A stretch of 64,000 nucleotides of DNA from Pseudomonas alkylphenolica. GTDB lineage: Bacteria > Pseudomonadota > Gammaproteobacteria > Pseudomonadales > Pseudomonadaceae. The notes under the pieces are model-generated. The model was given only the letters and a program-made list of their open reading frames with translations. It did not search any database and had not been told where the DNA came from. The stretch covers positions 1,667,501 to 1,731,500 of the forward strand of contig NZ_CP009048.1 in NCBI RefSeq assembly GCF_000746525.1, given 5' to 3'. Shown here one piece after another: positions 42,217 through 54,976 of the stretch (its first letter is position 1; every line of letters starts with the position of its first letter). The translations under genes and the position numbers were made by a program.

Positions 42217-43931
42217 CGATGGGGTTCCTGATGTTGTTGCTGTTCGTACCAGAATTTACGCCGAAGCAGTTCGGCCGGGTTGTCCGGGATCTGCCGCAGC
42301 CATTGTTCCAGCGCCTGGCGCTGTTCGGCATCCAGGGTGCTGTCTAGCGGACGCTGGGGTGGCCGGGTGGTTTCTTCATCATCGCCGTTGTTGGCCAGGG
42401 TTTGTGCCTGCTCACTGCTGTTGCTGTCGTCCTTGTGGGCGTCGCTGGGCTGTTGTGCAGGCTTTTCGCTGGCCGGATCCTGACTGTTCTGGGCACTGCT
42501 GTTGCTGTCAGTCTGGGCGTTGGCGTCGCTCTGCTGATTTTGCTCGGGCGGTTGCTCGGGCTGTTCGGCCTGACGTTGTTGCAGCAGTTGTTCGACCAGC
42601 GCCTTGTTGTTCAAGGCAGGCTGCAATTCCGGCTGGCGCTCCAGCGCCTGTTCATAGGCATCCAGCGCCGCTTCAAGTTCCCCGCTACGTGCCAAGGCGT
42701 TGCCGCGATTGTAGTGGTCTGCAGCGCTGTTGCCCTGGGCGAACAGGCGCGCGGCAGCCTCGTAGTCGCCGGCTTCATAGAGCGCCAGGCCTTTCCATTG
42801 GCGATCCTGGAAGTGCTCGGCGGCTTCATTCGGACGCTGTTGCTCGAGTAATCGCTGGCCTTGCTGGTCGGGACGCAGCCACAGGTCATTGAACTCGAAG
42901 GCGTAGCTCGGTTGCGGCAACACCAGCAGCAGCGGCAGGCAGAACAGCCAGCCACGGCGGCCGGCGCAGGCTGCCAATAGCAGCAGAGGCAACAGCAGCC
43001 AGTAGCCCTGGTCGGCCCAACTGTCCAACTGCAGGGTCTGACCGTTGTCGCGCAGGCTTTGCGGGTTCTCGAACAGACGCAGACCGCGCAGATCGAGGTC
43101 GTCGATACGGGCGTTGCGATAACGCCCGCCGGTGCTGCTGATAAATGCTCTAAGGCTGGCGCTGTCCAGACGTGGCAGAAGGATACCGCCCTGATCGTCC
43201 TTGAGGAATTCACCATTAGCTTGCCTGACCGGAGCGCCTTGTGCCGAACCGATCCCCAGCATCAGCAGGCTCGGGCCCTGGCGCCCCAGGGCTTGCTTGA
43301 TGGCTTCGCGTTCCTGCGGGCTCAAGGACGAGCCCACCAGCAGCAAGCGACCCTGGCCCAGGCCGGCCTGGGCGAGCAAGGCCAGGCCCTTGCGCACGGC
43401 GAGGTCGGCGCGCTGGCCGGTCTGCGGCATGATCGACGGGTCGAGGGCTTCAAGCAGGTTGCGGCTGGTGGCCAGGTCGTCCGACAGCGGCACCAGGGTA
43501 TGGGCGCTACCGGCATAGACGATGATGGCGGTCTGGCTGTCGCGGCGGTGTTCGAGCAGGTCGAGAATCTTGCGCCGCGCCTGCTCCAGGCGGGTCGGTG
43601 CGACATCCTCGGCGAGCATCTGCGGGGTCAGCTCGAGCAGGATTACCAGCGGGTCGGCAGGGCGCTGGCGGGTTTCTTCCAGACGTTGCCAACTGGGACC
43701 GACCAGCGCCAGTACGCTGAGCAGCCAGGCCAGACCCAGAGCAATCCACGGCAGTTTGCTGTCGCGGCCATTGCCACCGCCCAGCAGTACGGCATGGAAG
43801 CTGGGCGGCAGGATCATTTGCCAGCGTCCGGCGCGTTTTTGCCGGTGCCAGAGCTTCCACAGCAACCAGGCGAGCAGGGGTAAAACGATCAGCCAGGCCG
43901 GGCGCAGCCATTGAGGCCATAGAGCCATCAT
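42213..43931 (-). CDS. VWA and TPR domain membrane protein, BatB/BatC-like
   Basis: 572 residues from the ATG at 43931, which overlaps the BatA stop. Two membrane helices near the N-terminus are followed by a von Willebrand A domain (about 80-280), a third helix pair, and then TPR repeats (LYEAGDYEAAARLFAQGNSA; DHYNRGNALARSGELEAALD). A long Gln/Ser/Asn-rich tail and a final basic segment end the protein. The MIDAS signature DxSxS is absent: the place reads ILLELTPQM. Metal binding by this VWA domain is therefore doubtful. It combines the roles split between BatB and BatC elsewhere. Confidence 0.87.
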   Translation of the reverse strand: MMALWPQWLRPAWLIVLPLLAWLLWKLWHRQKRAGRWQMILPPSFHAVLLGGGNGRDSKLPWIALGLAWLLSVLALVGPSWQRLEETRQRPADPLVILLELTPQMLAEDVAPTRLEQARRKILDLLEHRRDSQTAIIVYAGSAHTLVPLSDDLATSRNLLEALDPSIMPQTGQRADLAVRKGLALLAQAGLGQGRLLLVGSSLSPQEREAIKQALGRQGPSLLMLGIGSAQGAPVRQANGEFLKDDQGGILLPRLDSASLRAFISSTGGRYRNARIDDLDLRGLRLFENPQSLRDNGQTLQLDSWADQGYWLLLPLLLLAACAGRRGWLFCLPLLLVLPQPSYAFEFNDLWLRPDQQGQRLLEQQRPNEAAEHFQDRQWKGLALYEAGDYEAAARLFAQGNSAADHYNRGNALARSGELEAALDAYEQALERQPELQPALNNKALVEQLLQQRQAEQPEQPPEQNQQSDANAQTDSNSSAQNSQDPASEKPAQQPSDAHKDDSNSSEQAQTLANNGDDEETTRPPQRPLDSTLDAEQRQALEQWLRQIPDNPAELLRRKFWYEQQQHQEPHR

Positions 43932-45004
43932 CGGCGTCTCCTCAGGCGCAGGCGCTTGAGCCGCTCGCGCCACTGCGCATGTGGAACAAGAAAGCTAGGT
44001 CGGCGCAGCAGACGTTGCAGGCGGTTGTCCGGCCATTGTTCCTGGATCACCAGCAGTACGCTGAGCAGCAAGGCCAGCGCCAGCGGCCAGCTGTACAAGG
44101 CTTCGGCCGTACGCGCCTGGGTCGGTTGCTGGGCCACCGGTTCCAGACGGTCCAGGGCATCATCGATATCCCGTAGCTCTTCGCCGTCACGGGCGCGGAA
44201 ATAGGTGCCGCCGGTCAGCCCGGCAATTTCCTTGAGGGAGGCTTCGTCCAGATCCAGGCTCGGATTGAGCCCAAGCAAGCCGGCAGTGCCGGTTTCTTCC
44301 GGGTCGGCGCCGATGCCGATGGTGTAGATCCGTACGTTTTCCTGGGCGGCCAGGCGGGCGGCGGTCAATGGGTGGATCTGTCCGCCATTGTTGGCGCCGT
44401 CAGTGACCAACACCAGTACCCGGCTCTGCGCCGGGCGCTGGCGCAGGCGCTTGAGTGCCAGGCCAATGGCATCGCCGATGGCGGTGTTCTTGCCGGCAAT
44501 GCCGATCTGCGCTTCGTCGAGGAAGGTGCGTACGGTACGCCGGTCGAAGGTCAGCGGTGCTTGCAGGTAGGCCTGGCTGCCGAACAGGATCAGGCCGACA
44601 CGGTCACCCTGGCGGGCTTCAAGGAAGTCGCCGAGCAGAGTCTTGACCAAGGTCAGACGGCTGACCTCTTCGTCCTGCCAGTGCATGTCGGGAAAGTCCA
44701 TGGAGCCGGAGACATCCACCGCCACCAGCAGGTCGCGGCCGCTGGCGGACACCGGCACCGGCTCGCCCAGCCACTGCGGGCGGGCGGCGGCCAGCAGCAG
44801 TAACAGCCAGACCACGACAAAGGGGGCCTGCTGGCGCCAGGTTGGCAGGTTCAGACGCGCACGACGCCCGGCCAGGCCTTCGAGTTCATTGAGAAAGCTG
44901 ACTTTGAGTACTGGTTCGCCACTGTCGGCGCCAGGCAGCAGCAAGCGCGCCAGCCAGGGCAGCGGCAACAGCAGGAACACCCACGGCCAGGCCAGTTCAA
45001 ACAT
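43928..45004 (-). CDS. VWA domain membrane protein, BatA-like
   Basis: 358 residues. Two N-terminal helices and one near the C-terminus (PLALALLLSVLLVIQEQW) frame a VWA domain with an intact MIDAS (LLVAVDVSGSMDFPDM) and a later LVLVTDGANNGG. It belongs to the BatA group of the MoxR/Bat locus. The intact MIDAS here contrasts with the degenerate one in the next gene. The stop overlaps the BatB-type start (ATGA), and the start overlaps the DUF4381 gene by eight bases. Confidence 0.9.
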   Translation of the reverse strand: MFELAWPWVFLLLPLPWLARLLLPGADSGEPVLKVSFLNELEGLAGRRARLNLPTWRQQAPFVVVWLLLLLAAARPQWLGEPVPVSASGRDLLVAVDVSGSMDFPDMHWQDEEVSRLTLVKTLLGDFLEARQGDRVGLILFGSQAYLQAPLTFDRRTVRTFLDEAQIGIAGKNTAIGDAIGLALKRLRQRPAQSRVLVLVTDGANNGGQIHPLTAARLAAQENVRIYTIGIGADPEETGTAGLLGLNPSLDLDEASLKEIAGLTGGTYFRARDGEELRDIDDALDRLEPVAQQPTQARTAEALYSWPLALALLLSVLLVIQEQWPDNRLQRLLRRPSFLVPHAQWRERLKRLRLRRRR

Positions 45005-45491
45005 GTTTACGGATCCAGGTTTCGACCGCTTGATTGAGCCCGGCGATGGCCTTGTCGTCGAGCTTGCATTCGGGTTTGTAGGCGCCTTCGACCAAGACCA
45101 TCCAGCGGGTCAGGCCGGCGGCCGGGCAGCGGTTGTCGAGAAAGGCCAGCCACTGCCGGCCATTGAGGGTATGGCTGTGGCTGCCGGGGTAGTGGTTGCG
45201 GCACAGGCGTTTGAGCAGTGCGTTGATCTGCTGCAACCAGGCGCCGGCCGGTTCTCCGTCATAGGGTTTGGGCAGGCGCGCGAGTTCCGCCAGCGCTTCG
45301 ATCCGGATCGGGTCGAGGGGTAGTTCGGCGCGCACGATGGGCTTTTTGCCCGGGCGCCAGTGGCGCAGGCGCCACACGCCCCAACCCAGCAGCGGTAGCA
45401 GGGCAAGCAACAGCCACCAGCCCGGTGCCAGTGGCCACCAGCTGATCGGCGCCGGGCTGATCAGTGGCTGAAGTTGCTCCAGCGGGTTCAC
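44997..45491 (-). CDS. DUF4381 family membrane protein
   Basis: 164 residues. One strong membrane helix near the N-terminus (WWPLAPGWWLLLALLPLLGW) is followed by a basic cytoplasmic region with NGRQWLAFLDNRCPA. This is the small protein usually found between DUF58 and VWA genes in MoxR loci. Function unknown; presumably a membrane component of the complex. It overlaps both neighbours, so stoichiometric translation is likely. Confidence 0.85.
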   Translation of the reverse strand: MNPLEQLQPLISPAPISWWPLAPGWWLLLALLPLLGWGVWRLRHWRPGKKPIVRAELPLDPIRIEALAELARLPKPYDGEPAGAWLQQINALLKRLCRNHYPGSHSHTLNGRQWLAFLDNRCPAAGLTRWMVLVEGAYKPECKLDDKAIAGLNQAVETWIRKHV

Positions 45492-46432
45492 TGGGCTTTC
45501 CCCGGTCGTTGCGCATTGAGGTACTCGCGCAGTTGTTCGATCATTTCGCTTTGCGTGCTCAGGGGCATCAGCACCACCCGCAGCTTCTGTGCCAGCAGTT
45601 CCCAGCGCTCGATACGCGCTTCGCTCTGTTGACGGTAGCTGCGGCGCAGGGTTGGGTCGAGGGTGTCGAGCTCCAGTTGCGCGCCGTGCTGGGCAAAGCG
45701 CAGCAGGCCGGCGGCGGGCAGGGCGTGGTCGAGCGGGTCGGACAGCGGCAGCAGGAGCAGGTCGCAGTGGCGCGACAGCAGGCTCAGTTGCTGTTCCACC
45801 GCCGGGCTCAAGGCACGCTCGTCGCAGATGATGATCGCCAGGCTGCCCGGGCGCAGCACTTCACGGGCGCGGCGCAGGGCAAGTCCGAGGCTGTCGGCCT
45901 GGGGCTTGGCTTCGGTATGCAGCGACTGGTTGACCCGGGCCAGGCGGTTGAGCAATTGCAGCAGGCTCTGCTTGCTGCGCCGCGGTTTGATTTCGTAGTG
46001 CTCGTTGTCGCCGAACACCAGGCCGCCGATGCGGTCGTTGTGGCCCAGGGCGGCCCAGCCGATCAGCGCCGCGGCCTGGGCGGCGAGCACCGATTTGAAC
46101 ATCAGTCCCGAGCCGAAGAACAGGCGCTGGCTTTGTTCGACGAGAATGTAGATCGGCCGCTCGCGCTCCTCATGGAAGAGTTTGGTATGCGGTTCCTGGG
46201 TGCGTGCGGTCACGCGCCAGTCGATGTTGCGCACATCGTCACCGGCCTGGTACACCCGCACCTGGTCGAAGTCGACCCCGCGGCCACGCAGCTTCGAGTG
46301 GTGCAGCCCCACCAGCGGGCTGCGCTGGCCGGGCCGGGAGAACAATTGCACTTCGCGCACACGATGACGCATCTCGATCAGCTCGGCGAGGCTGATACGG
46401 ATTCCGGGCGCGGCCAGCAGGCGATCGGGCAT
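45488..46432 (-). CDS. DUF58 domain protein of the MoxR locus
   Basis: 314 residues, soluble. The DUF58 signature VRVYQAGDDVRNIDWRVTAR is followed by HTKLFHEERERPIYILVE, leading into a VWA-like fold. Such proteins always pair with MoxR ATPases and are thought to be clients or adaptors. It starts four bases after the moxR stop and overlaps the DUF4381 gene by four. Confidence 0.9.
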   Translation of the reverse strand: MPDRLLAAPGIRISLAELIEMRHRVREVQLFSRPGQRSPLVGLHHSKLRGRGVDFDQVRVYQAGDDVRNIDWRVTARTQEPHTKLFHEERERPIYILVEQSQRLFFGSGLMFKSVLAAQAAALIGWAALGHNDRIGGLVFGDNEHYEIKPRRSKQSLLQLLNRLARVNQSLHTEAKPQADSLGLALRRAREVLRPGSLAIIICDERALSPAVEQQLSLLSRHCDLLLLPLSDPLDHALPAAGLLRFAQHGAQLELDTLDPTLRRSYRQQSEARIERWELLAQKLRVVLMPLSTQSEMIEQLREYLNAQRPGKAQ

Positions 46433-46436
46433 GGCG

Positions 46437-47396
<960 letters not shown>

Positions 47397-47524
47397 CGTT
47401 GAAGGTTCCTGGACAAAAGCCTGGGCGTGCGGCGTGAAAGCGCCCGGGCGGGGGCTGTTACTTTAATCTATCCGGGCCTCAGGCTACTAATGGCGGCAGG
47501 TAATTTTGTGCAATTCGAAAACGT

Positions 47525-47570
47525 ATCGCGGGGCAAGCCCGCTCCTACCGACTGGGGTAGGGACGGGCTC
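47525..47570. repeat. Single REP unit with decayed partner
   Basis: A full unit (ATCGCGGGGCAAGCCCGCTC..) followed by a mutated inverted arm (GGTAGGGACGGGCTC). It lies between the end of the CdsA-like gene and the start of moxR. No ORF is supported in the rest of this 172-bp gap. Confidence 0.8.
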
Positions 47571-48501
47571 AGGTCCACCAGTAACGCACCAGATGAAAGA
47601 AGATCGGCGCGGCAAAGCACACCGAGTCCAGGCGGTCGAGCATGCCGCCGTGGCCTTCGATCATGTGCCCCCAGTCCTTGACCCCACGGTCGCGTTTGAT
47701 CGCTGACATGACAATGCCACCGGCAAAGCCCAGCAGGTTGATCAGCAGCGCGATCAGGAACGACTGCCAGAGGTTGAACGGGGTGATCCACCACAGCGCG
47801 GCGCCGATCAGCGACGCCAGTAACAGGCCGCCGACAAAGCCTTCGACGGTTTTCGACGGTGACAGGTTGGGGGCGATCTTGTGTTTGCCGAACAACTTAC
47901 CGCAGACGTACTGCAGCACATCGGACAGTTGCACGACGATCACCAGGTAAGCGATCAGCAGCAGATTGCGGCCCTCGTAGCCGGCGATGTCCAGGGTTAG
48001 CAGGGCCGGCACGAACGATATGCAGTACACCGCGATCATCAGGCCCCACTGGACTTTGGAGGCGCGCTCGAGAAAGTGCGCGCTGTCACCACCCAGGGAC
48101 GCGAGGATCGGCAGCAGCAAGAACACGTAGACCGGGATGAAAATCGAGAACAACCCATACCAGTCGGCGTAAATCAGCAGGTATTGCAGCGGCAGCGCCA
48201 GATAGAACGCTGCCACCAGGGCCGGATAGTCGCTGCGCCGGGTCGGGGTCAGGGTGAGGAATTCACGCAAGGCATAGAACGATACGGCGTAGAACAGCAG
48301 GATCACTGCACCGTTGCCCAGCCAGAAGGCGATGCCGATGACCAGCACCATCACCCACCAGGCATTGATCCGCGCATTGAGGTTGTCGATCACGGCATTG
48401 GCGCTGCCAGCGGTTCGCCATTTGAGGATCAAGCCGATCAGCGAGGCCGACAGCAGCAGCGCGCCGATGCCGGCAAATAACGTCAGGGTCTGGTTATCCA
48501 T
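47569..48501 (-). CDS. CdsA-like phosphatidate cytidylyltransferase (YnbB type)
   Basis: 310 residues with about eight membrane helices. The C-terminal signature is that of CDP-diacylglycerol synthases: LSPSKTVEGFVGGLLLASL and later SAIKRDRGVKDWGHMIEGHGGMLDRLDSV, with conserved Asp residues for metal-CTP binding. The housekeeping CdsA of Pseudomonas normally lies with dxr and uppS, so this is a second copy. It is the last of six tightly spaced lipid genes and starts two bases after the acyltransferase stop. The order and partners match E. coli YnbB. It should supply a CDP-activated lipid to the phosphatidyltransferase at the head of the cluster. Confidence 0.88.
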   Translation of the reverse strand: MDNQTLTLFAGIGALLLSASLIGLILKWRTAGSANAVIDNLNARINAWWVMVLVIGIAFWLGNGAVILLFYAVSFYALREFLTLTPTRRSDYPALVAAFYLALPLQYLLIYADWYGLFSIFIPVYVFLLLPILASLGGDSAHFLERASKVQWGLMIAVYCISFVPALLTLDIAGYEGRNLLLIAYLVIVVQLSDVLQYVCGKLFGKHKIAPNLSPSKTVEGFVGGLLLASLIGAALWWITPFNLWQSFLIALLINLLGFAGGIVMSAIKRDRGVKDWGHMIEGHGGMLDRLDSVCFAAPIFFHLVRYWWT

Positions 48502-48503
48502 GT

Positions 48504-49124
48504 TCAGCAAGGCTCCGGGGCCAGGTCCAGCAACGCGGCACGGCTACGTTGTAGAAATTGTGTTTTGCTCTCACCGTCTTCGAGCTGCAGTGGTGCGCCG
48601 AAGCTGGTGGTGCAGAGCAACGGCAACGGCAGTACACGGCCCTTGGGCATGACCCGGTTGAGATTGGCGATCCACACCGGCACCAGTTGTACCTGCGGGT
48701 AGGCTGTGGCCAGGTGAAAGAGTCCGCTTTTGAACGGCAGCAGGCCTTCTTCCTGATTACGCGTGCCTTCGGGGAAGATGATCAGTGAGTCGCCACCGTC
48801 CAGGGCATCGAGCATGGGTTGCAGGGGATTGGCTTGTGGGTCGTGGCGCTCACGGTCGATCAGCACGCCATTGAACACCTGATTGATCACGTAGCGGCGC
48901 AGTGCAGAGGTTTGCCAGTAATCAGCCCCTGCTACCGGCCGAGTGGTTTTGCGCAATGCCGGTGGCAGCGAGGCCCATAACAGCACAAAGTCGCCATGGC
49001 TGCTGTGATTGGCAAAGTAGATGCGCTGTACAGGCTCGGGCCCGCAGCCCAGCCACAGGCTGCGGGCACCGGTGATTGAGCGTGCGGCTGAGGTGATGAG
49101 GTGCGCGACCAAAGGTTCGAGCAT
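48504..49124 (-). CDS. PlsC-type lysophospholipid acyltransferase
   Basis: 206 residues. The catalytic HxxxxD is present in NHSSHGDFVLLW. The later blocks INQVFNGVLIDRE and IIFPEGTRNQ complete the 1-acylglycerol-3-phosphate acyltransferase pattern. It has only a short hydrophobic region, so it is probably peripheral in the inner membrane. Housekeeping PlsC is expected elsewhere; this copy lies inside the lipid cluster and likely makes the acylated acceptor used by the adjacent CdsA-like enzyme. It is 9 bp downstream of an unknown membrane protein gene. Confidence 0.9.
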   Translation of the reverse strand: MLEPLVAHLITSAARSITGARSLWLGCGPEPVQRIYFANHSSHGDFVLLWASLPPALRKTTRPVAGADYWQTSALRRYVINQVFNGVLIDRERHDPQANPLQPMLDALDGGDSLIIFPEGTRNQEEGLLPFKSGLFHLATAYPQVQLVPVWIANLNRVMPKGRVLPLPLLCTTSFGAPLQLEDGESKTQFLQRSRAALLDLAPEPC

Positions 49125-49133
49125 AGGGATTCC

Positions 49134-49589
49134 TTATCCGGCTGTGGTCCACCAGGGGCTGGCCAGCAGGCAGCCCAGGGCCAGGAGTAGTTGCGCTGCG
49201 AGCGCGAGCGCTTGACGGCGTAGCAGCGCCAAAGCGCCGCGACTGCGCTCAGGCCAGGGTCGGCCGCCGCGTTCGGCAGCTTGCAGGCCAAGTGAGGCCA
49301 GGGCCTGATCCAGCGCTTGGGTATTGTCGTCCAGCGCTGACGGGTTATCGGCCAGCCGTTGGAACAGATCGGCATCGAAGGCCACCCTCAGCGCCCAGTA
49401 TTTTTGCATTGCCCCCAGCATCAGCAACCCGCAGCCGACCGCCAGGGCCCAGGGGTTGAACGTGGCCAGCCACCAAGGGCCGAGCCCGAGCAATACGCCC
49501 AGCAATGCCAGCCCGGTGGATAACTGGTCCAGGCTGCGTCCGCGACGCAGCAGGCTGGCGACACAATACAGTTGCATTTCAGTAGCCAT
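49134..49589 (-). CDS. Unknown membrane protein of the lipid cluster
   Basis: 151 residues. Two adjoining hydrophobic segments (LSTGLALLGVLLGLGPWWLA and WALAVGCGLLMLGAM) and one near the C-terminus (LALAAQLLLALGCLLASPWW) suggest three membrane helices. A soluble loop between them contains ADLFQRLADNPSALDDNTQAL. The start overlaps the end of the PAP2/phosphatase gene by 11 bases, so the gene is embedded in the operon. I do not recognise a family. Its fixed place between two lipid enzymes suggests a partner role, which is inference. Confidence 0.75.
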   Translation of the reverse strand: MATEMQLYCVASLLRRGRSLDQLSTGLALLGVLLGLGPWWLATFNPWALAVGCGLLMLGAMQKYWALRVAFDADLFQRLADNPSALDDNTQALDQALASLGLQAAERGGRPWPERSRGALALLRRQALALAAQLLLALGCLLASPWWTTAG

Positions 49590-50934
49590 ACACCCTCGAC
49601 TGATTTTCGCTCAACGGCGCCAGGGCCTGACGGTGCGCAGCGTGCAGGACCACCCGCGGGCGTGCCTGGCGAAGCAGTTCGAGGGCGGCGTCAACGCTGC
49701 TGGCGCGGCCACTGTGCAGCAACCAGGCGGCCACTGCCGTTGCACTGCGGGAGTAGCCCAGGGCGCAGCAGACCAGCACCGGGCCGTGCTGGCGCAGGCG
49801 TTCCAGCGCTTCGGCCAGCTCAAGGCATTGCGCTGTCGTGGGGGCTGTCAGATCGAGCACCGGCACTGCCTGATAGGCCGCGGTGCCAGGGTCAAGGGGC
49901 AGCTCGGCGCACAGGTCGAGCGCGGCGTTGAACGGGCTGTGGCGTAATTGCGTGGCGGTAGGGATACGTCCTAGCCAGACGTCATCGATTACCTGGTCCG
50001 GCTGCGGGTGTTTCCGCGTCCACAGCCGTGAGTTGATCCAGGCGGCGGCCAGATACGGCGCCAGCAACCAGCAGGCGGCAGCGCTCAAGCGCCCGTCGGT
50101 GCCTTTCTGGAAACCGTCGGCATCGAACAGCGCGTAGTTCAGCGCCACCAGCAGCAGTGCCACCGCAGGCCAGAGCAACCACAACCCGCCACCGCCCAGG
50201 GCGAAGGCAGGAATGGCAAACAGCGCGGCGCCAAGTGTGTAGCCAACTGCCAACTGCCAGCGTTTGCGATCGCCTGTCAGCTGTAGCCGTTGCAGCATGC
50301 CGGGGCGCTCCAGTGGCCACAGCCAGACACAGAGCCAGCCGGCCAGGGCGCCGGTGGGCACATCGATGAAGTGATGCTGCCAGGTGGTCAGTACCGACAC
50401 GCCGATCAAGGCAAACCAGCCATGCACCAGCCAGCGCCACAGGCCCCGGCAATGCTGCGCGTAGCACACCCACAGCACCACCAGCAGGGCGATGTGCAAT
50501 GAGGGGGCCTGGTTGAACGGCTTGTCGAAACCGGCAAGAACGGCAAACAGCCAGCCGAACACGCCGTCCAGCTCGGGACGCTCGAAAGTGAAGCGCAACG
50601 GCCAGAGCAGGAAGCAACTGACGGCAATCAGCTGGGCAGTGAGCAGACGCAGGGCATGACGCTTGAGGGCCTGGCGGCTGCGCGGCAGCAACAGGGAAAA
50701 GCCGTACAGCAGGTCGATGGACCAGTAGGGCACGATGGTCCACGGCCAGAACGGCATATGCTGTTCCCAGGCAAACACCAGGCTGCCGACATCATCGCGC
50801 TGGGCGGTGACCCAGGTGGCGAAGCCGTACGTGCTGAAAAACAACGGCGCCAAAAGCAGCAGCCAGAGCACGGCGGGTTTCAGCAGGCCAGGTTCGCGCG
50901 CGGTCAGCGGGGCGGCGGCGCTCAGGCTCATCAT
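49579..50934 (-). CDS. PAP2 / dual-specificity phosphatase fusion (YnbD type)
   Basis: 451 residues from the ATG at 50934, which overlaps the upstream stop (ATGA). The N-terminal ~290 residues carry multiple membrane helices with a PAP2-like core: LRFTFERPEL, then FNQAPSLHIALL, then TTWQHHFIDVPTGALAG. The PSLH...HHFxD form is closer to inositol-phosphorylceramide-synthase-like PAP2_3 proteins than to the usual PSGH. The C-terminal ~150 residues form a cysteine phosphatase with CALGYSR (the C-x5-R loop), like dual-specificity or PTPMT1-type enzymes. The fusion could exchange and then dephosphorylate a lipid head group. It matches the plan of E. coli YnbD. Confidence 0.88.
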   Translation of the reverse strand: MMSLSAAAPLTAREPGLLKPAVLWLLLLAPLFFSTYGFATWVTAQRDDVGSLVFAWEQHMPFWPWTIVPYWSIDLLYGFSLLLPRSRQALKRHALRLLTAQLIAVSCFLLWPLRFTFERPELDGVFGWLFAVLAGFDKPFNQAPSLHIALLVVLWVCYAQHCRGLWRWLVHGWFALIGVSVLTTWQHHFIDVPTGALAGWLCVWLWPLERPGMLQRLQLTGDRKRWQLAVGYTLGAALFAIPAFALGGGGLWLLWPAVALLLVALNYALFDADGFQKGTDGRLSAAACWLLAPYLAAAWINSRLWTRKHPQPDQVIDDVWLGRIPTATQLRHSPFNAALDLCAELPLDPGTAAYQAVPVLDLTAPTTAQCLELAEALERLRQHGPVLVCCALGYSRSATAVAAWLLHSGRASSVDAALELLRQARPRVVLHAAHRQALAPLSENQSRVYGY

Positions 50935-52688
50935 TGCACCCGCTGGGCGAGCGATACGCTGAAAATCCCCCATTGGTCGATGCGCTGGGTCACTTTGCGA
51001 AAGCCGGCCGCCTCCACCAACTGGTCCATCTCGGCCTGGCTGCGGCGGCGCATCACCCAGGCCTGGCCTGCGCGGTGGCTGGTCAGGGCGCGGGCGATCA
51101 GCTCCAGCTGCGGGTGCCAGGGTTGCCCGGTGTAGACCAGATAACCTCCAGGTTCGATGGCATCGGCCAGCCCGGCCAGGGAGCGGCCGACCATCTGATT
51201 GTCGGCAAACAGTTCATAGAGCCCGGAGACCACCGCCAGGCTCGGTTTTGGCGACAGCGCAGCCAGGTCCTGGCCGTCGAAGGCATCGCCTTTGACGAAT
51301 CGGGCGATGTCGCCAAGGCCTTTTTCAGCGATCAGCGCGCTGCCATCGCGCACGTTGATGTCGCTGTAGTCACGCAGCAGGATCGACTCCGGCAACGGGC
51401 TCATGCCTTGCACGGCCTCAAGGATATAGCGCCCATGGCCTGCCGCGATGTCGACGATGCGCACGGGCTGCTGCTGGTCGCGTAACCCGGTGATCGCCAG
51501 ACGCAACAGCTCTTCGACGTGCAGCTTGCGTTGGCGGATGCCTCGCCAGCCGATGGAGTCGAGGTAATTGCGATCGATCAACCGGCCAATCGGCGAAAGC
51601 CCGGTGGCGCGGTTGCGGTACACGTAATCGAGGGTACTGCCCGAGTCGAAACCGGTGTCGAAGCCAAGCTTTACCCCGGCCGACAGTTTGCTACCCAGGC
51701 CGAGGCTGGCCCTCGTCATGCGCCAATACAGGTCGCGCAGGGAGTTGCGTGGCAGCGCGGTGGCCAGCGACTCGGCCTCGGCACAGGTGGCGCCGAGGCG
51801 GTCGGCATCCAGCAATGACGGGCGGTTCAAGGGGCTGGCGAAATTCTGCAGGATAAAGCGACGCATGCGGGCGATGACCGGGGCGCGATCTTTTTCCCCC
51901 AGGGTGTCGTGGAAGAACCCCGGCAGAATGTGCTTTTCCTTGTGCACGCTGCCCAGGCGCTCGAAAAACTGCTCCTGGGGTTTGCGATGCACCACGAAGT
52001 CGGCGCCGGAGATCAGCAACTGGGTCGGTACCCCGATCGCCTGAGCATCGGCGACCACGCGTTCGCCGGCTTCGTAGAGGCCCAGCAGCACATTGACCGA
52101 AATGCTTTTAGTGATCAAAGGGTCCTGGTCGTAGGACGCTACGCGCTGCGGATCGTGAGTGAGAAAGCGCGCCTTGACGTAGCTGTCGACGAAAAAGTTG
52201 CCGCGCAGCTTACGCAGCAAGGCCAGCCCCGGCCGGGCCAGGGGCACGTAAAGTTTGACTTTGAACGCTGGAGACGCGAGCACCAGTGCGCGGATGCGCG
52301 GGGCATAGTCGTGAACCCAGGTGGCAACGATCACCGCGCCTACGCTTTGGGCAATTACGGCGATGTTTTCTTCGGCGATGCCATGGGCCTGAGCCAGGTG
52401 CTCGCAGAAGGTCTGCACGTCCCGGGCGCTGGTGGCAAAGCTTGGGCTGTCGCCGCGGGCGCCGGGTGACTGGCCGTGGCCACGGGCATCCCAGGCGAAG
52501 AAGTCGGTGTCTGCCAGGTCCAGTTCATCCACCAGGTGGGCAATGCGCCCGGAGTGTTCGTGACCCCGGTGAAACAGCAGCACGGCCTTGCGCGGCTCGC
52601 CCGGCGTGGCGTTGCTGGCTGGCCAGTGGCGATAGAACAGCGCTACGCCGTCATGGGTGGTGAAGGTCTGATCCTGAGCATCGCGCAT
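50931..52688 (-). CDS. Alpha/beta hydrolase - class I methyltransferase fusion (YnbC type)
   Basis: 585 residues. The first ~300 are a monoacylglycerol-lipase-like alpha/beta hydrolase: VLLFHRGHEHSGR (oxyanion), FFAWDARGHGQS, nucleophile in IAQSVGAV, Asp in LLISGADFVV, His in LPGFFHDTLG. The nucleophile elbow is A-Q-S-V-G rather than G-x-S-x-G. The last ~250 hold a Rossmann methyltransferase with the SAM loop VDIAAGHGRYILEAV. Together they could deacylate and methylate a lipid. No membrane helix is present. It is coupled to the YnbD-type gene and lies 10 bp after the phosphatidyltransferase gene. Confidence 0.9.
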   Translation of the reverse strand: MRDAQDQTFTTHDGVALFYRHWPASNATPGEPRKAVLLFHRGHEHSGRIAHLVDELDLADTDFFAWDARGHGQSPGARGDSPSFATSARDVQTFCEHLAQAHGIAEENIAVIAQSVGAVIVATWVHDYAPRIRALVLASPAFKVKLYVPLARPGLALLRKLRGNFFVDSYVKARFLTHDPQRVASYDQDPLITKSISVNVLLGLYEAGERVVADAQAIGVPTQLLISGADFVVHRKPQEQFFERLGSVHKEKHILPGFFHDTLGEKDRAPVIARMRRFILQNFASPLNRPSLLDADRLGATCAEAESLATALPRNSLRDLYWRMTRASLGLGSKLSAGVKLGFDTGFDSGSTLDYVYRNRATGLSPIGRLIDRNYLDSIGWRGIRQRKLHVEELLRLAITGLRDQQQPVRIVDIAAGHGRYILEAVQGMSPLPESILLRDYSDINVRDGSALIAEKGLGDIARFVKGDAFDGQDLAALSPKPSLAVVSGLYELFADNQMVGRSLAGLADAIEPGGYLVYTGQPWHPQLELIARALTSHRAGQAWVMRRRSQAEMDQLVEAAGFRKVTQRIDQWGIFSVSLAQRVQ

Positions 52689-52698
52689 TGCAACTTCC

Positions 52699-53322
52699 TT
52701 ATGCTGATGGGGCGTTTTCCTTTACTTCTTTGAGTCCCTGGCGCACCCGGTTGATCAGGGTATATACCAACAACCCGGCAATCACCGCGAACACTGCATT
52801 GATCCAGACGGCGCTGAGCCAACCCAGGGCGATCGCAATGGCCAAGGCGCCGAGCACGAAGGCGCGGTCACTTTTGCCCATCGGCCCGTCATAGCGGCGT
52901 GAGGCGCCGACCATTGGCCCGAGCACGCCAGTGTACTCGCTGAACACCGCCAATAGCGCAACCAGCACCACAGCAAATGCGCTGACGCCTGGAACCAGTG
53001 CGAAAGGCAGGATCAGCGCACTGTCGGCAACGATGTCGCACAGTTCGTTGAGGTAGGCCCCCAAGTGCGATTGCTGGCCGAACTCTCTGGCCAGCATACC
53101 GTCAATGGCGTTGAGGGCCATGCGCAGGATCATCCATAACGGAATCAGGATGAACAGCCAGGCATGCTGCGCAAACAGGGCGATCAGGCAGCCAAGCAGT
53201 ACCGAGCAGGCACCCGCCAGCAAGGTGATCTGATTGGCGGTGACGCTGCGCGCGTGCAGGCGTTTGACCAGCGGTCGCAGGAGGTTCTGGAAGGCAGGTT
53301 TGAGTTGGTAGATGGACACCAT
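52699..53322 (-). CDS. CDP-alcohol phosphatidyltransferase family protein (YnbA type), altered motif
   Basis: 207 residues from the ATG at 53322 (an upstream in-frame extension lacks a better start). Six or so membrane helices. The family motif D-x2-DG-x2-AR-x8-G-x3-D-x3-D appears here as NAIDGMLAREFGQQSHLG followed by AYLNELCD: the first and third Asp are Asn, while the second and fourth remain. These Asp bind the metal and CDP substrate in known members. The protein may use an altered metal site or have changed chemistry. It heads the six-gene lipid cluster and is preceded by a 325-bp gap with a REP pair. Confidence 0.87.
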   Translation of the reverse strand: MVSIYQLKPAFQNLLRPLVKRLHARSVTANQITLLAGACSVLLGCLIALFAQHAWLFILIPLWMILRMALNAIDGMLAREFGQQSHLGAYLNELCDIVADSALILPFALVPGVSAFAVVLVALLAVFSEYTGVLGPMVGASRRYDGPMGKSDRAFVLGALAIAIALGWLSAVWINAVFAVIAGLLVYTLINRVRQGLKEVKENAPSA

Positions 53323-53449
53323 CGGAGCAGGTCTCGACCGGGCAGGGAACAGGTTTAGGTCAGGATGGCGCCGGGCAAAGGCGCGGAGCGCCATCAGCGG
53401 CTGCAGCGTTATGCAGAAGCAACTGTAGAGGAAATCCTGGCAGTGCTGC

Positions 53450-53573
53450 TAATGCTGTTCACTTAGGTGGGAGCGAGCTTGCCTCGCGATTGCGATTTGC
53501 CTGACAAAACGCAATCGCGGGGCAAGCCCGCTCCCACCGGGCTTGTCCCGCTTCCCTTAAGTGAACAGCATTA
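53450..53573. repeat. 16-bp inverted repeat enclosing a REP pair
   Basis: TAATGCTGTTCACTTA at 53450-53465 and its exact reverse complement at 53558-53573. They enclose a REP pair (see 53467-53537). No ORF is evident between. The whole forms a large potential stem around the REP hairpin. The surrounding gap 53323-53647 holds no gene I can support. Confidence 0.85.
53467..53537. repeat. REP inverted pair upstream of the lipid cluster
   Basis: Left unit GTGGGAGCGAGCTTGCCTCG.. (with A and T variants) and right inverted unit ending ..CAAGCCCGCTCCCAC, separated by 23 bp. The left arm has drifted from the right, unlike the perfect pairs after pepN and the RND gene. Confidence 0.9.
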
Positions 53574-53647
53574 CGCCAGTGCTACAGGTTGCGACGTGGG
53601 CGGGGCCCGCGTAGGCCGAAGACTACGCGGGTGAGTGAGGCGATGTT

Positions 53648-54976
53648 TCAGTTCTTGAAGCTGGAATGCTTGTGCCCTTGGTCACACAGGGCAAACACCA
53701 CCACCAGCACCGCCGCCACCGCCAGGATCACCGCCACGCCATCGGTGGAGTGGGTCGCGGAGCTGGCCACCAGGGCCAGGCCGCCCAATGGTGCCAGGCC
53801 ACCGGCGACGGCCGTACCGATCTCGCGGCCGGTACCGAAGCCCGAGGAACGGGTCTGGGTCGGGAACTGGCGGCTGAGGAACGAGCCCTGAGGGGCGAAC
53901 ATCATCGGTGCGAGGATGCCGGTACCGATGGCGATCGCCAGGTAGATCATCGTCGGCTCGCCGGTGTTGAGCAGGGCCAGGAACGGATAGGCGAACAGCA
54001 CCGAGAAAACCCCGCCGAGCATCAGCACGGTCTTGCTGCTCCACTTGTCGCACAGCCAGCCGAAGAACGGCACGGCGATAATCGCCACCAGGCTGGCGAT
54101 GGTCACCGACAGCGAAGTGACATGCGCTTCAACGCCTTTGTATTGGGTCAGGTAGGCCAGCGAGAAAGTCTTGAAGATGTAGCTCAGGGCGTTGTAGCCG
54201 ATGGCGACGAAGAACACCACGGCCAGACCCTTGAGGTCGTTCTTGAACAGCAGCTTGAGTGGCGACACCTGCGCTTTGCGCTGAGTTTTGTCGAGCTCTT
54301 TGAAGTCCGGGGTTTCCGGAATGCTTCTGCGCACCCACAGGCCGACGGCGACCAGCACGATGCTGCAGATGAACGGGATGCGCCAGCCACCGGAGAGCAG
54401 GAACTCGTTGCCGTTCATGGTCAGCAGGTACACGGTCAGCGACGACAGCAACAGGCCCAGGTTCAGCCCCAGTGCCGGCCAGGCACCCTGGCTGCCGCGC
54501 TTGCCTTCACTGGCGTGCTCATAGGATGTGACCGCCGCGGCAGAGAGCTCGGCGCCGGCCCCCAGCCCCTGAATCACCCGGACCAGAACGAGGATGATCG
54601 GCGCCCAGATGCCGATCGAGGCATAGCTGGGGATCAGGCCGATCAGGGTGGTGCAGACACCCATCAGGCAGAAGGTGATGACCAGCACCTGCTTGCGTCC
54701 GAAACGGTCACCCAGGTAACCGAAGAGGATGCCGCCGAAAGGCCGGGCGATAAAGCCGATGGCAAAAGTGGAAAAGGCCAGCAGCGAGGCCACGGCCGGA
54801 TTGCTCGGGTCGAAAAACACCTTGGAGAAGACAATCGCCGCCATGGTGGCGTACAGGTAGAAGTCATACCACTCCAGCATCGAGCCGAAGATGGTGGCCG
54901 CCGCGACCTTGCGCAGGCGCTTTTTATTTTGTTCCGGGGTTTCTGTCGCGGCCGCAGCCGTCTCGTGTACCGACAT
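53648..54976 (-). CDS. MFS transporter, metabolite:H+ symporter type
   Basis: 442 residues with twelve membrane helices. The N-terminal block ATIFGSMLEWYDFYLYATMA and RPFGGILFGYLGDRFGRKQ mark the MHS (metabolite:H+ symporter) family. Substrates in the family are organic acids, such as shikimate or alpha-ketoglutarate. It starts 45 bp downstream of the lhgO stop with no terminator visible, so it is probably in the lhgO transcript. A 2-hydroxyglutarate or other C5 dicarboxylate substrate is plausible from context only. Confidence 0.87.
   Translation of the reverse strand: MSVHETAAAATETPEQNKKRLRKVAAATIFGSMLEWYDFYLYATMAAIVFSKVFFDPSNPAVASLLAFSTFAIGFIARPFGGILFGYLGDRFGRKQVLVITFCLMGVCTTLIGLIPSYASIGIWAPIILVLVRVIQGLGAGAELSAAAVTSYEHASEGKRGSQGAWPALGLNLGLLLSSLTVYLLTMNGNEFLLSGGWRIPFICSIVLVAVGLWVRRSIPETPDFKELDKTQRKAQVSPLKLLFKNDLKGLAVVFFVAIGYNALSYIFKTFSLAYLTQYKGVEAHVTSLSVTIASLVAIIAVPFFGWLCDKWSSKTVLMLGGVFSVLFAYPFLALLNTGEPTMIYLAIAIGTGILAPMMFAPQGSFLSRQFPTQTRSSGFGTGREIGTAVAGGLAPLGGLALVASSATHSTDGVAVILAVAAVLVVVFALCDQGHKHSSFKN

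Follow-up and report, generated by a model that had tools for sequence, protein, structure and literature searches.

A six-gene cluster of Pseudomonas alkylphenolica orthologous to arc1A-F, with an Asn/Asn motif in its CDP-alcohol phosphotransferase-like protein

Bacterial rivals at close range inject lipases, and to our knowledge it is little understood how membranes survive these injected enzymes. The question addressed here is what is made, and for what use, by a compact set of six lipid-enzyme-like genes in the complete 5.76-Mb genome of Pseudomonas alkylphenolica (GCF_000746525.1). The window analysed is a stretch of 64,000 nucleotides (contig NZ_CP009048.1, positions 1,667,501 to 1,731,500), and the cluster lies at 47569-53322 on its minus strand. 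The locus is a member of the arc1 group with an unusual catalytic motif at its heart, a motif that as far as could be found has not been described. The six genes, listed in order with the identity of each protein to its counterpart in P. aeruginosa PA7, are as follows.

52699..53322, minus strand: YnbA / Arc1A ortholog, CDP (cytidine diphosphate)-alcohol phosphatidyltransferase-like membrane protein (PF01066, E 5e-7; 65.5% identical to the PA7 gene at the PA2541 place)
50931..52688, minus strand: YnbC / Arc1B ortholog, fusion of an alpha/beta hydrolase and a class I methyltransferase-like domain (PF12146, 4e-72; PF12147, 5e-155; 80.7%)
49579..50973, minus strand: YnbD / Arc1C ortholog, fusion of a PAP2-superfamily membrane domain and a cysteine phosphatase (DSP) (DSPc, 1e-11; PAP2_3, 5e-4, under the Pfam cut-off; 64.7%)
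49134..49589, minus strand: Arc1D ortholog, small 151-aa protein (no Pfam or NCBIfam match; 54.4%)
48504..49124, minus strand: Arc1E ortholog, PlsC-type acyltransferase (PF01553, 3.5e-19; 70.4%)
47569..48510, minus strand: YnbB / Arc1F ortholog, CdsA-like cytidylyltransferase (PF01148, 7e-73; 84.8%)

A preliminary description of this DNA had proposed six tight minus-strand genes with these domains, four of them akin to E. coli ynbABCD, and both points are borne out. All frames are intact, adjoining frames are separated by gaps of 9-10 bp or overlap by 7-43 bp (the 43-bp overlap of the PAP2-DSP gene with the YnbC gene may be shorter, as the start of the former is uncertain), and the four proteins are 38-58% identical to E. 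coli YnbA-D. The YnbB gene starts either at the TTG at 48510 or at an ATG a few codons further in.

Judged by sequence, the cluster is a gene-for-gene, same-order ortholog of arc1A-F (PA2541-PA2536), the antagonism resistance cluster 1 of P. aeruginosa: number and order of the genes agree, and the proteins share 54-85% identity with those of PA7. The published primers for the deletion of PA2541 and PA2536 (PMC8926400) also point to this locus, since seven of their eight gene-specific parts fit the two ends of the PA7 YnbA and YnbB genes with at most one mismatch; the eighth, from the PA2536 downstream primer, was not found in the PA7 locus. The single-gene names Arc1A to Arc1F are assigned by gene order in PMC8926400. 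That paper, which named the cluster, describes five of the six genes as phospholipid-like and likens four to phosphatidylglycerol-synthesis enzymes. It also reports that P. aeruginosa lacking PA2541 survives the type VI secretion system (T6SS) of B. thailandensis less well, with partial complementation; that a further deletion within the operon, on top of PA2541 loss, has no added effect; that arc1 loss does not affect survival of heat, peroxide, salt or detergent; and that expression, very low at base, is induced via Gac/Rsm. In a CRISPR interference study (PMC12663445), arc1A mutants showed increased sensitivity to V. cholerae carrying TseL and to A. baylyi armed only with the lipase Tle1, and the role of arc1A was termed auxiliary to that of arc3A. 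A further paper cites PA2541 as a target of RsmA that has a single site close to the Shine-Dalgarno sequence (PMC4066749), and a transposon mutant of PA2537, there a probable acyltransferase, survives less in mouse airways (PMC2246019). The preliminary description had called the product of the set unknown; the available parts of PMC8926400 and PMC12663445 indeed state no arc1 product, while a name and a phenotype for the cluster already exist. Defence against T6SS attack, also with lipase effectors, is published only for P. aeruginosa and would be expected in the present Pseudomonas from orthology.

The E. coli ynbABCD set shares with the window cluster the same fusions and the same Asn/Asn motif in YnbA, and its four genes are encoded together. 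It differs in the order (A-B-C-D) and in having no acyltransferase or small protein next to it, and it looks like a reduced or a different version of the cluster. Of 5426 complete E. coli genomes, 4242 carry it at a cover of at least 80%. None of the literature matches listed links ynb with arc1, which is not proof of absence.

The conservation of the cluster was followed within and beyond the genus. The named Pseudomonas loci are the best 80 of 556 stretches encoding a YnbC relative; all are from Pseudomonas, the closest 96% identical, and the list is uninformative on other genera. Order and strand of the six genes agree in 77 of the 80, and the other three loci (L027, L039, L057) are cut by a contig edge. 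Outside the genus, 31 genomes have a strong PF12147 match, and 28 of them (all but G326, G561 and G652) supplied one locus each, anchored on YnbC. All six genes stand together in 18/28, and singly YnbA is found in 27, YnbB in 22, YnbD in 22, the acyltransferase in 20 and the small protein in 20 of these loci. Gene order and strand vary among them, which argues for functional linkage rather than recent common descent of one operon. A lack of conserved co-occurrence of the families had been named as a refuting outcome by the preliminary description, and with these counts the proposal was not refuted. Its view of the acyltransferase and the small protein as additions to the set does not hold, given that each is found in 20/28 loci and the acyltransferase belongs to a core triad with YnbA and YnbB.

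Based on profile searches of 274 genomes of the class, YnbA occurs in 17, YnbB in 18 and both in 16 (Fisher 8e-23, with kinship ignored); 9 of these 16 genomes had themselves contributed a row to the profile of YnbB and 5 to that of YnbA, and the YnbB threshold was fixed only after the YnbB hits in genomes without a neighbouring YnbB had been viewed. The two YnbB-only genomes (G002, G107) have weaker scores, and the neighbouring transferase of G002 has four aspartates; the YnbA-only genome (G110) holds a 76-codon remnant. Where YnbB is beside neither YnbA nor YnbC, it is found elsewhere in the genome in 7/7 cases, with an adjoining acyltransferase in 5/7. PF12147, the mark of YnbC, is patchy: it is found in 9 of the 11 listed genomes of the window's genus (absent from G451 and G521), with any match in 8/274 class genomes (5 strong, including the window's own), in 27/398 phylum genomes and on 30 plasmid records, many of which are Shinella replicons. 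It is absent from 8 of the 13 genomes with a strong YnbA match, and at 11 loci around YnbA-type genes in genomes without PF12147, YnbB and the acyltransferase adjoin in 10. YnbD was found in 5 of 10 genomes queried, adjoining the cluster in three and elsewhere in two (G149, G698). Because the association of YnbA, YnbB and acyltransferase holds where YnbC and YnbD are often absent, these three form the core, and YnbC, YnbD and the small protein form a second layer.

The motif of CDP-alcohol phosphotransferases is D1xxD2GxxAR...GxxxD3xxxD4. In YnbA it reads N-x-x-D-G-x-x-A-R ... G-x-x-x-N-E-x-x-D, with N71 and N92 at the D1 and D3 places. In an alignment of 108 rows (80 of which are the window and named Pseudomonas), Asn is found at D1 in 107 rows, with one gap, and at D3 in all 108; D2 and D4 are retained, with E93 and D100 invariant as well. 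Among all 52 PF01066 matches of 14 genomes, Asn/Asn is present in 11/11 proteins of YnbA type or of a sister clade and in 0/41 others, which have four aspartates and among which L192 is counted. The Asn/Asn proteins form one group in the tree (99/96), split into YnbA proper and the sister clade; the motif columns were kept in for this tree and some of its long branches meet. The sister clade comprises five sequences (L179, L180, L181, L184, L189) with the motif CN-L-x-DGMVAxEGG ... N-[ED]-x-P-DR, and a PlsC-like acyltransferase and YnbB adjoin in all five loci; one genome (G308) has both Asn/Asn clades. The window genome encodes separate PgsA-like and PssA-like proteins, each with four aspartates, and YnbA falls in another clade.

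YnbA resembles the class I CDP-alcohol phosphotransferases (PgsA, PssA, phosphatidylinositol-phosphate synthase and PgsA1 of Mycobacterium tuberculosis, MtPgsA1) in its PF01066 match, which is above the cut-off, in the alignment of the whole domain (its profile aligns end to end with MtPgsA1, E 8e-10) and in D2 and D4. Unlike them, it has Asn for Asp at D1 and D3. In MtPgsA1 one metal is held by D1, D2 and D3, the last of which also contacts a second metal, and D4 is the presumed base (PMC6506517). Exchange of motif aspartates for Ser or Asn in the M. jannaschii phosphatidylserine synthase reduced or abolished activity, in some cases with altered metal dependence (PMC8633023). Either YnbA-type proteins arrange metal or substrate in another way, or they have ceased to be ordinary transferases; YnbA appears to stand outside the ordinary class I enzymes and may work like one. 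The invariance of Asn/Asn and the arc1A phenotype speak against decay. The head-group transfer step of the preliminary description is weaker than it seems, as YnbA has replaced two of its four motif aspartates and mutation of these residues costs an ordinary enzyme its activity (PMC8633023). No description of the Asn/Asn motif was found among the literature matches listed, nor in the available parts of three structural papers, and as far as these searches show the motif is new, although this does not prove that no description exists.

Concerning the acceptor, R155 and R195 of MtPgsA1, which bind the phosphate of inositol phosphate, align with the invariant R153 and R192 of YnbA, and at the place of R94, essential for inositol phosphate, YnbA has a hydrophobic residue (position 97). 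This combination fits a phosphorylated alcohol other than inositol phosphate, with a phosphatase (the DSP domain of YnbD) acting next.

Catalytic residues are also conserved in the partner proteins. The acyltransferase keeps H40/D45 and F-P-E-G-T-R. YnbB shares with CdsA the Pfam family CTP_transf_1 and the conserved C-terminal catalytic part; it differs in forming a family of its own (in the same genomes, profile E-values are about 1e-115 or better for YnbB versus about 1e-30 for the second, CdsA-like match) and in that E. coli YnbB failed to replace CdsA in a cdsA deletion (PMC6362211, data not shown there). In YnbD, C403 and R409 of the DSP domain are conserved, and the membrane domain of 20 members gives weak matches to PAP2 in 16 and to PAP2_3 in 14. 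The hydrolase half of YnbC groups with monoacylglycerol lipases (7p0y, E 1.7e-26) and has the conserved triad S115, D230 and H260; no close or useful solved relative is found for its methyltransferase half, whose substrate can therefore only be guessed. The YnbC gene is broken into two frames at L058 (10001-11755; one of the 77) and at L149 (9218-10987), where the stop lies within PF12147. The Arc1D ortholog has two hydrophobic stretches, and D72, D94, R110 and R115 are invariant in 23 relatives.

Our preferred reading, to which we give a probability of about one half or slightly less, is that the locus is an inducible, self-contained membrane-lipid assembly line whose product lets the membrane withstand, or recover from, phospholipases injected by rivals. 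The PlsC-like enzyme would make a diacyl glycerol-phosphate, YnbB would activate it with CTP (cytidine triphosphate) to a CDP-lipid, and YnbA would join this CDP-lipid to a small alcohol that carries a phosphate. The extra phosphate would then be stripped off by the phosphatase domain of YnbD, and YnbC and the PAP2 domain would trim or modify the product. A dedicated line is favoured by the co-occurrence of YnbA and YnbB and by the presence of YnbB elsewhere in 7/7 genomes, and a phosphorylated acceptor by the invariant R153/R192 together with a DSP phosphatase in the cluster. The product is probably neither phosphatidylglycerol nor phosphatidylinositol: a non-standard lipid is favoured by the complementation failures of YnbB and YnbD (PMC6362211, PMC7413402) and by the lack of an inositol-phosphate synthase in the window genome. 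The new or modified phospholipid of the preliminary description therefore remains the best guess and is not a result.

Several points weigh against the assembly line. We infer every reaction, the head group and the action of the product on membrane resistance, and none of the reactions was demonstrated in this analysis. YnbA may, by analogy with the mutated enzyme, have little or no ordinary CDP-alcohol transferase activity. YnbD was not detectable in five genomes with YnbA (G239, G555, G695, G696, G032), so the phosphatase step cannot be general. Both failures to complement were obtained with E. coli proteins tested singly. In PMC8926400, none of the B. thailandensis single effector mutations rescued the arc1 defect. 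Also, 55 of 79 named loci have a GGA of the RsmA type at -22 to -6 relative to arc1A (start codons placed by a simple rule); it is absent near the YnbA start of the window, as well as in L013, L014 and L015, so that Gac/Rsm control has no sequence support in the window. No DUF2339 (Arc3A family) protein was found in the window genome, though arc1 is there; the partner system known from P. aeruginosa is therefore missing, and the defence setting differs.

The same proteins could serve ordinary lipids. A salvage or detoxification system, in which toxic lysolipids are cleared by the monoacylglycerol-lipase-like domain of YnbC, the methyltransferase caps the freed acid or a different product, and ordinary lipids are made anew by the PlsC- and CdsA-like enzymes, agrees with the lipase grouping and intact triad of YnbC and with the protection by Arc1A against lipases that free lysolipids and fatty acids (PMC12663445). 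We regard it as unlikely, since YnbC, missing from 8 of the 13 genomes with a strong YnbA match, is not core, plain detoxification gives the CDP-alcohol transferase-like protein no place, and the methyltransferase substrate is itself guessed. A spare line for phosphatidylglycerol, in which the PlsC-, CdsA- and PgsA-like proteins and a phosphatase remake the ordinary lipid lost to lipases, is quite improbable. The likening of four arc1 genes to the enzymes of this route (PMC8926400) speaks for it, and the two phosphate-binding arginines of YnbA would suit glycerol-3-phosphate too; however, YnbA is not PgsA, for which a separate four-Asp protein of a different clade exists in the genome, E. coli YnbD complements loss of neither the phosphatidylglycerophosphate phosphatase nor the C55-PP (undecaprenyl pyrophosphate) phosphatase (PMC7413402), YnbB does not complement cdsA, and the hydrolase-methyltransferase is left without explanation.

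Two further routes are much harder to reconcile with the data. YnbB might be the key enzyme in a reserve pathway for the glycolipid MPIase, or for a sugar-diphospho-lipid like it, as its overexpression raises MPIase about as CdsA does (PMC6362211). This is very doubtful: MPIase is hardly changed by ynbB loss in the same paper, no glycosyltransferase recurs in 29 clustered neighbourhoods, and YnbA, YnbC and YnbD would have no role. Least credible is a phosphatidylinositol pathway as in Bacteroides or mycobacteria. YnbA scores best against the profiles for archaetidylinositol-phosphate synthase (3e-19) and for phosphatidylinositol-phosphate synthase (6e-11), in each case below the cut-off, but the search for PF07994 found no inositol-phosphate synthase in the window genome or the E. 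coli control (uptake and other routes fall outside that family) and R94 is not kept; the inositol lipid route was rejected on these two grounds.

Beyond the assembly line, a more far-reaching proposal is that the YnbA type constitutes a catalytic class of its own among CDP-alcohol phosphotransferases, with an Asn/Asn metal site suited to a CDP-lipid that only the partner YnbB makes. The YnbA and CNLLDGMVAVEGG sister clades would share that supply, and arc1 would be its on-demand version in bacterial immunity, making a lipase-tolerant lipid. We consider this unlikely.

Concerning neighbouring genes, a recurrent seventh gene was considered as supplier of the head group and rejected: none was found in the 29 neighbourhoods, where one cluster appears at three closely related loci. 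Scanned with Pfam, a selection of neighbours proved to be single, unrelated genes, and PADLOC anti-phage models gave no convincing match, the best being weak methyltransferase matches of YnbC (1e-5). One locus (L137, 10208-12358) has a 717-aa WG-repeat protein between YnbC and YnbD, seen there only, and in another (L126, 11514-13130) YnbA is immediately preceded, on its own strand, by a PLDc_2 (phospholipase D-like) gene. Downstream of the window cluster, MoxR ATPase, DUF58-like, small and VWA-like genes are found at 43928-47396 on the minus strand; they were rejected as part of the cluster, being common to only 2 of the 80 named loci (L013, L014). The arc2 cluster of P. aeruginosa also contains MoxR and VWA genes, to which they may be related. 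REP (repetitive extragenic palindromic)-like Pseudomonas sequences flank the cluster, a pair upstream (53469-53535) and one downstream (47526-47546), and 14 such matches with at most 3 mismatches are found across the window versus 0.02 expected. Scans of 47300-53700 returned no promoters and 6 terminator-like sites versus 5.2 expected.

By joining the E. coli ynb genes to arc1, the question of the arc1 product becomes testable in a harmless E. coli laboratory strain. Should the Asn/Asn enzymes prove active, broader rules would be needed for a large family whose four aspartates count as essential.

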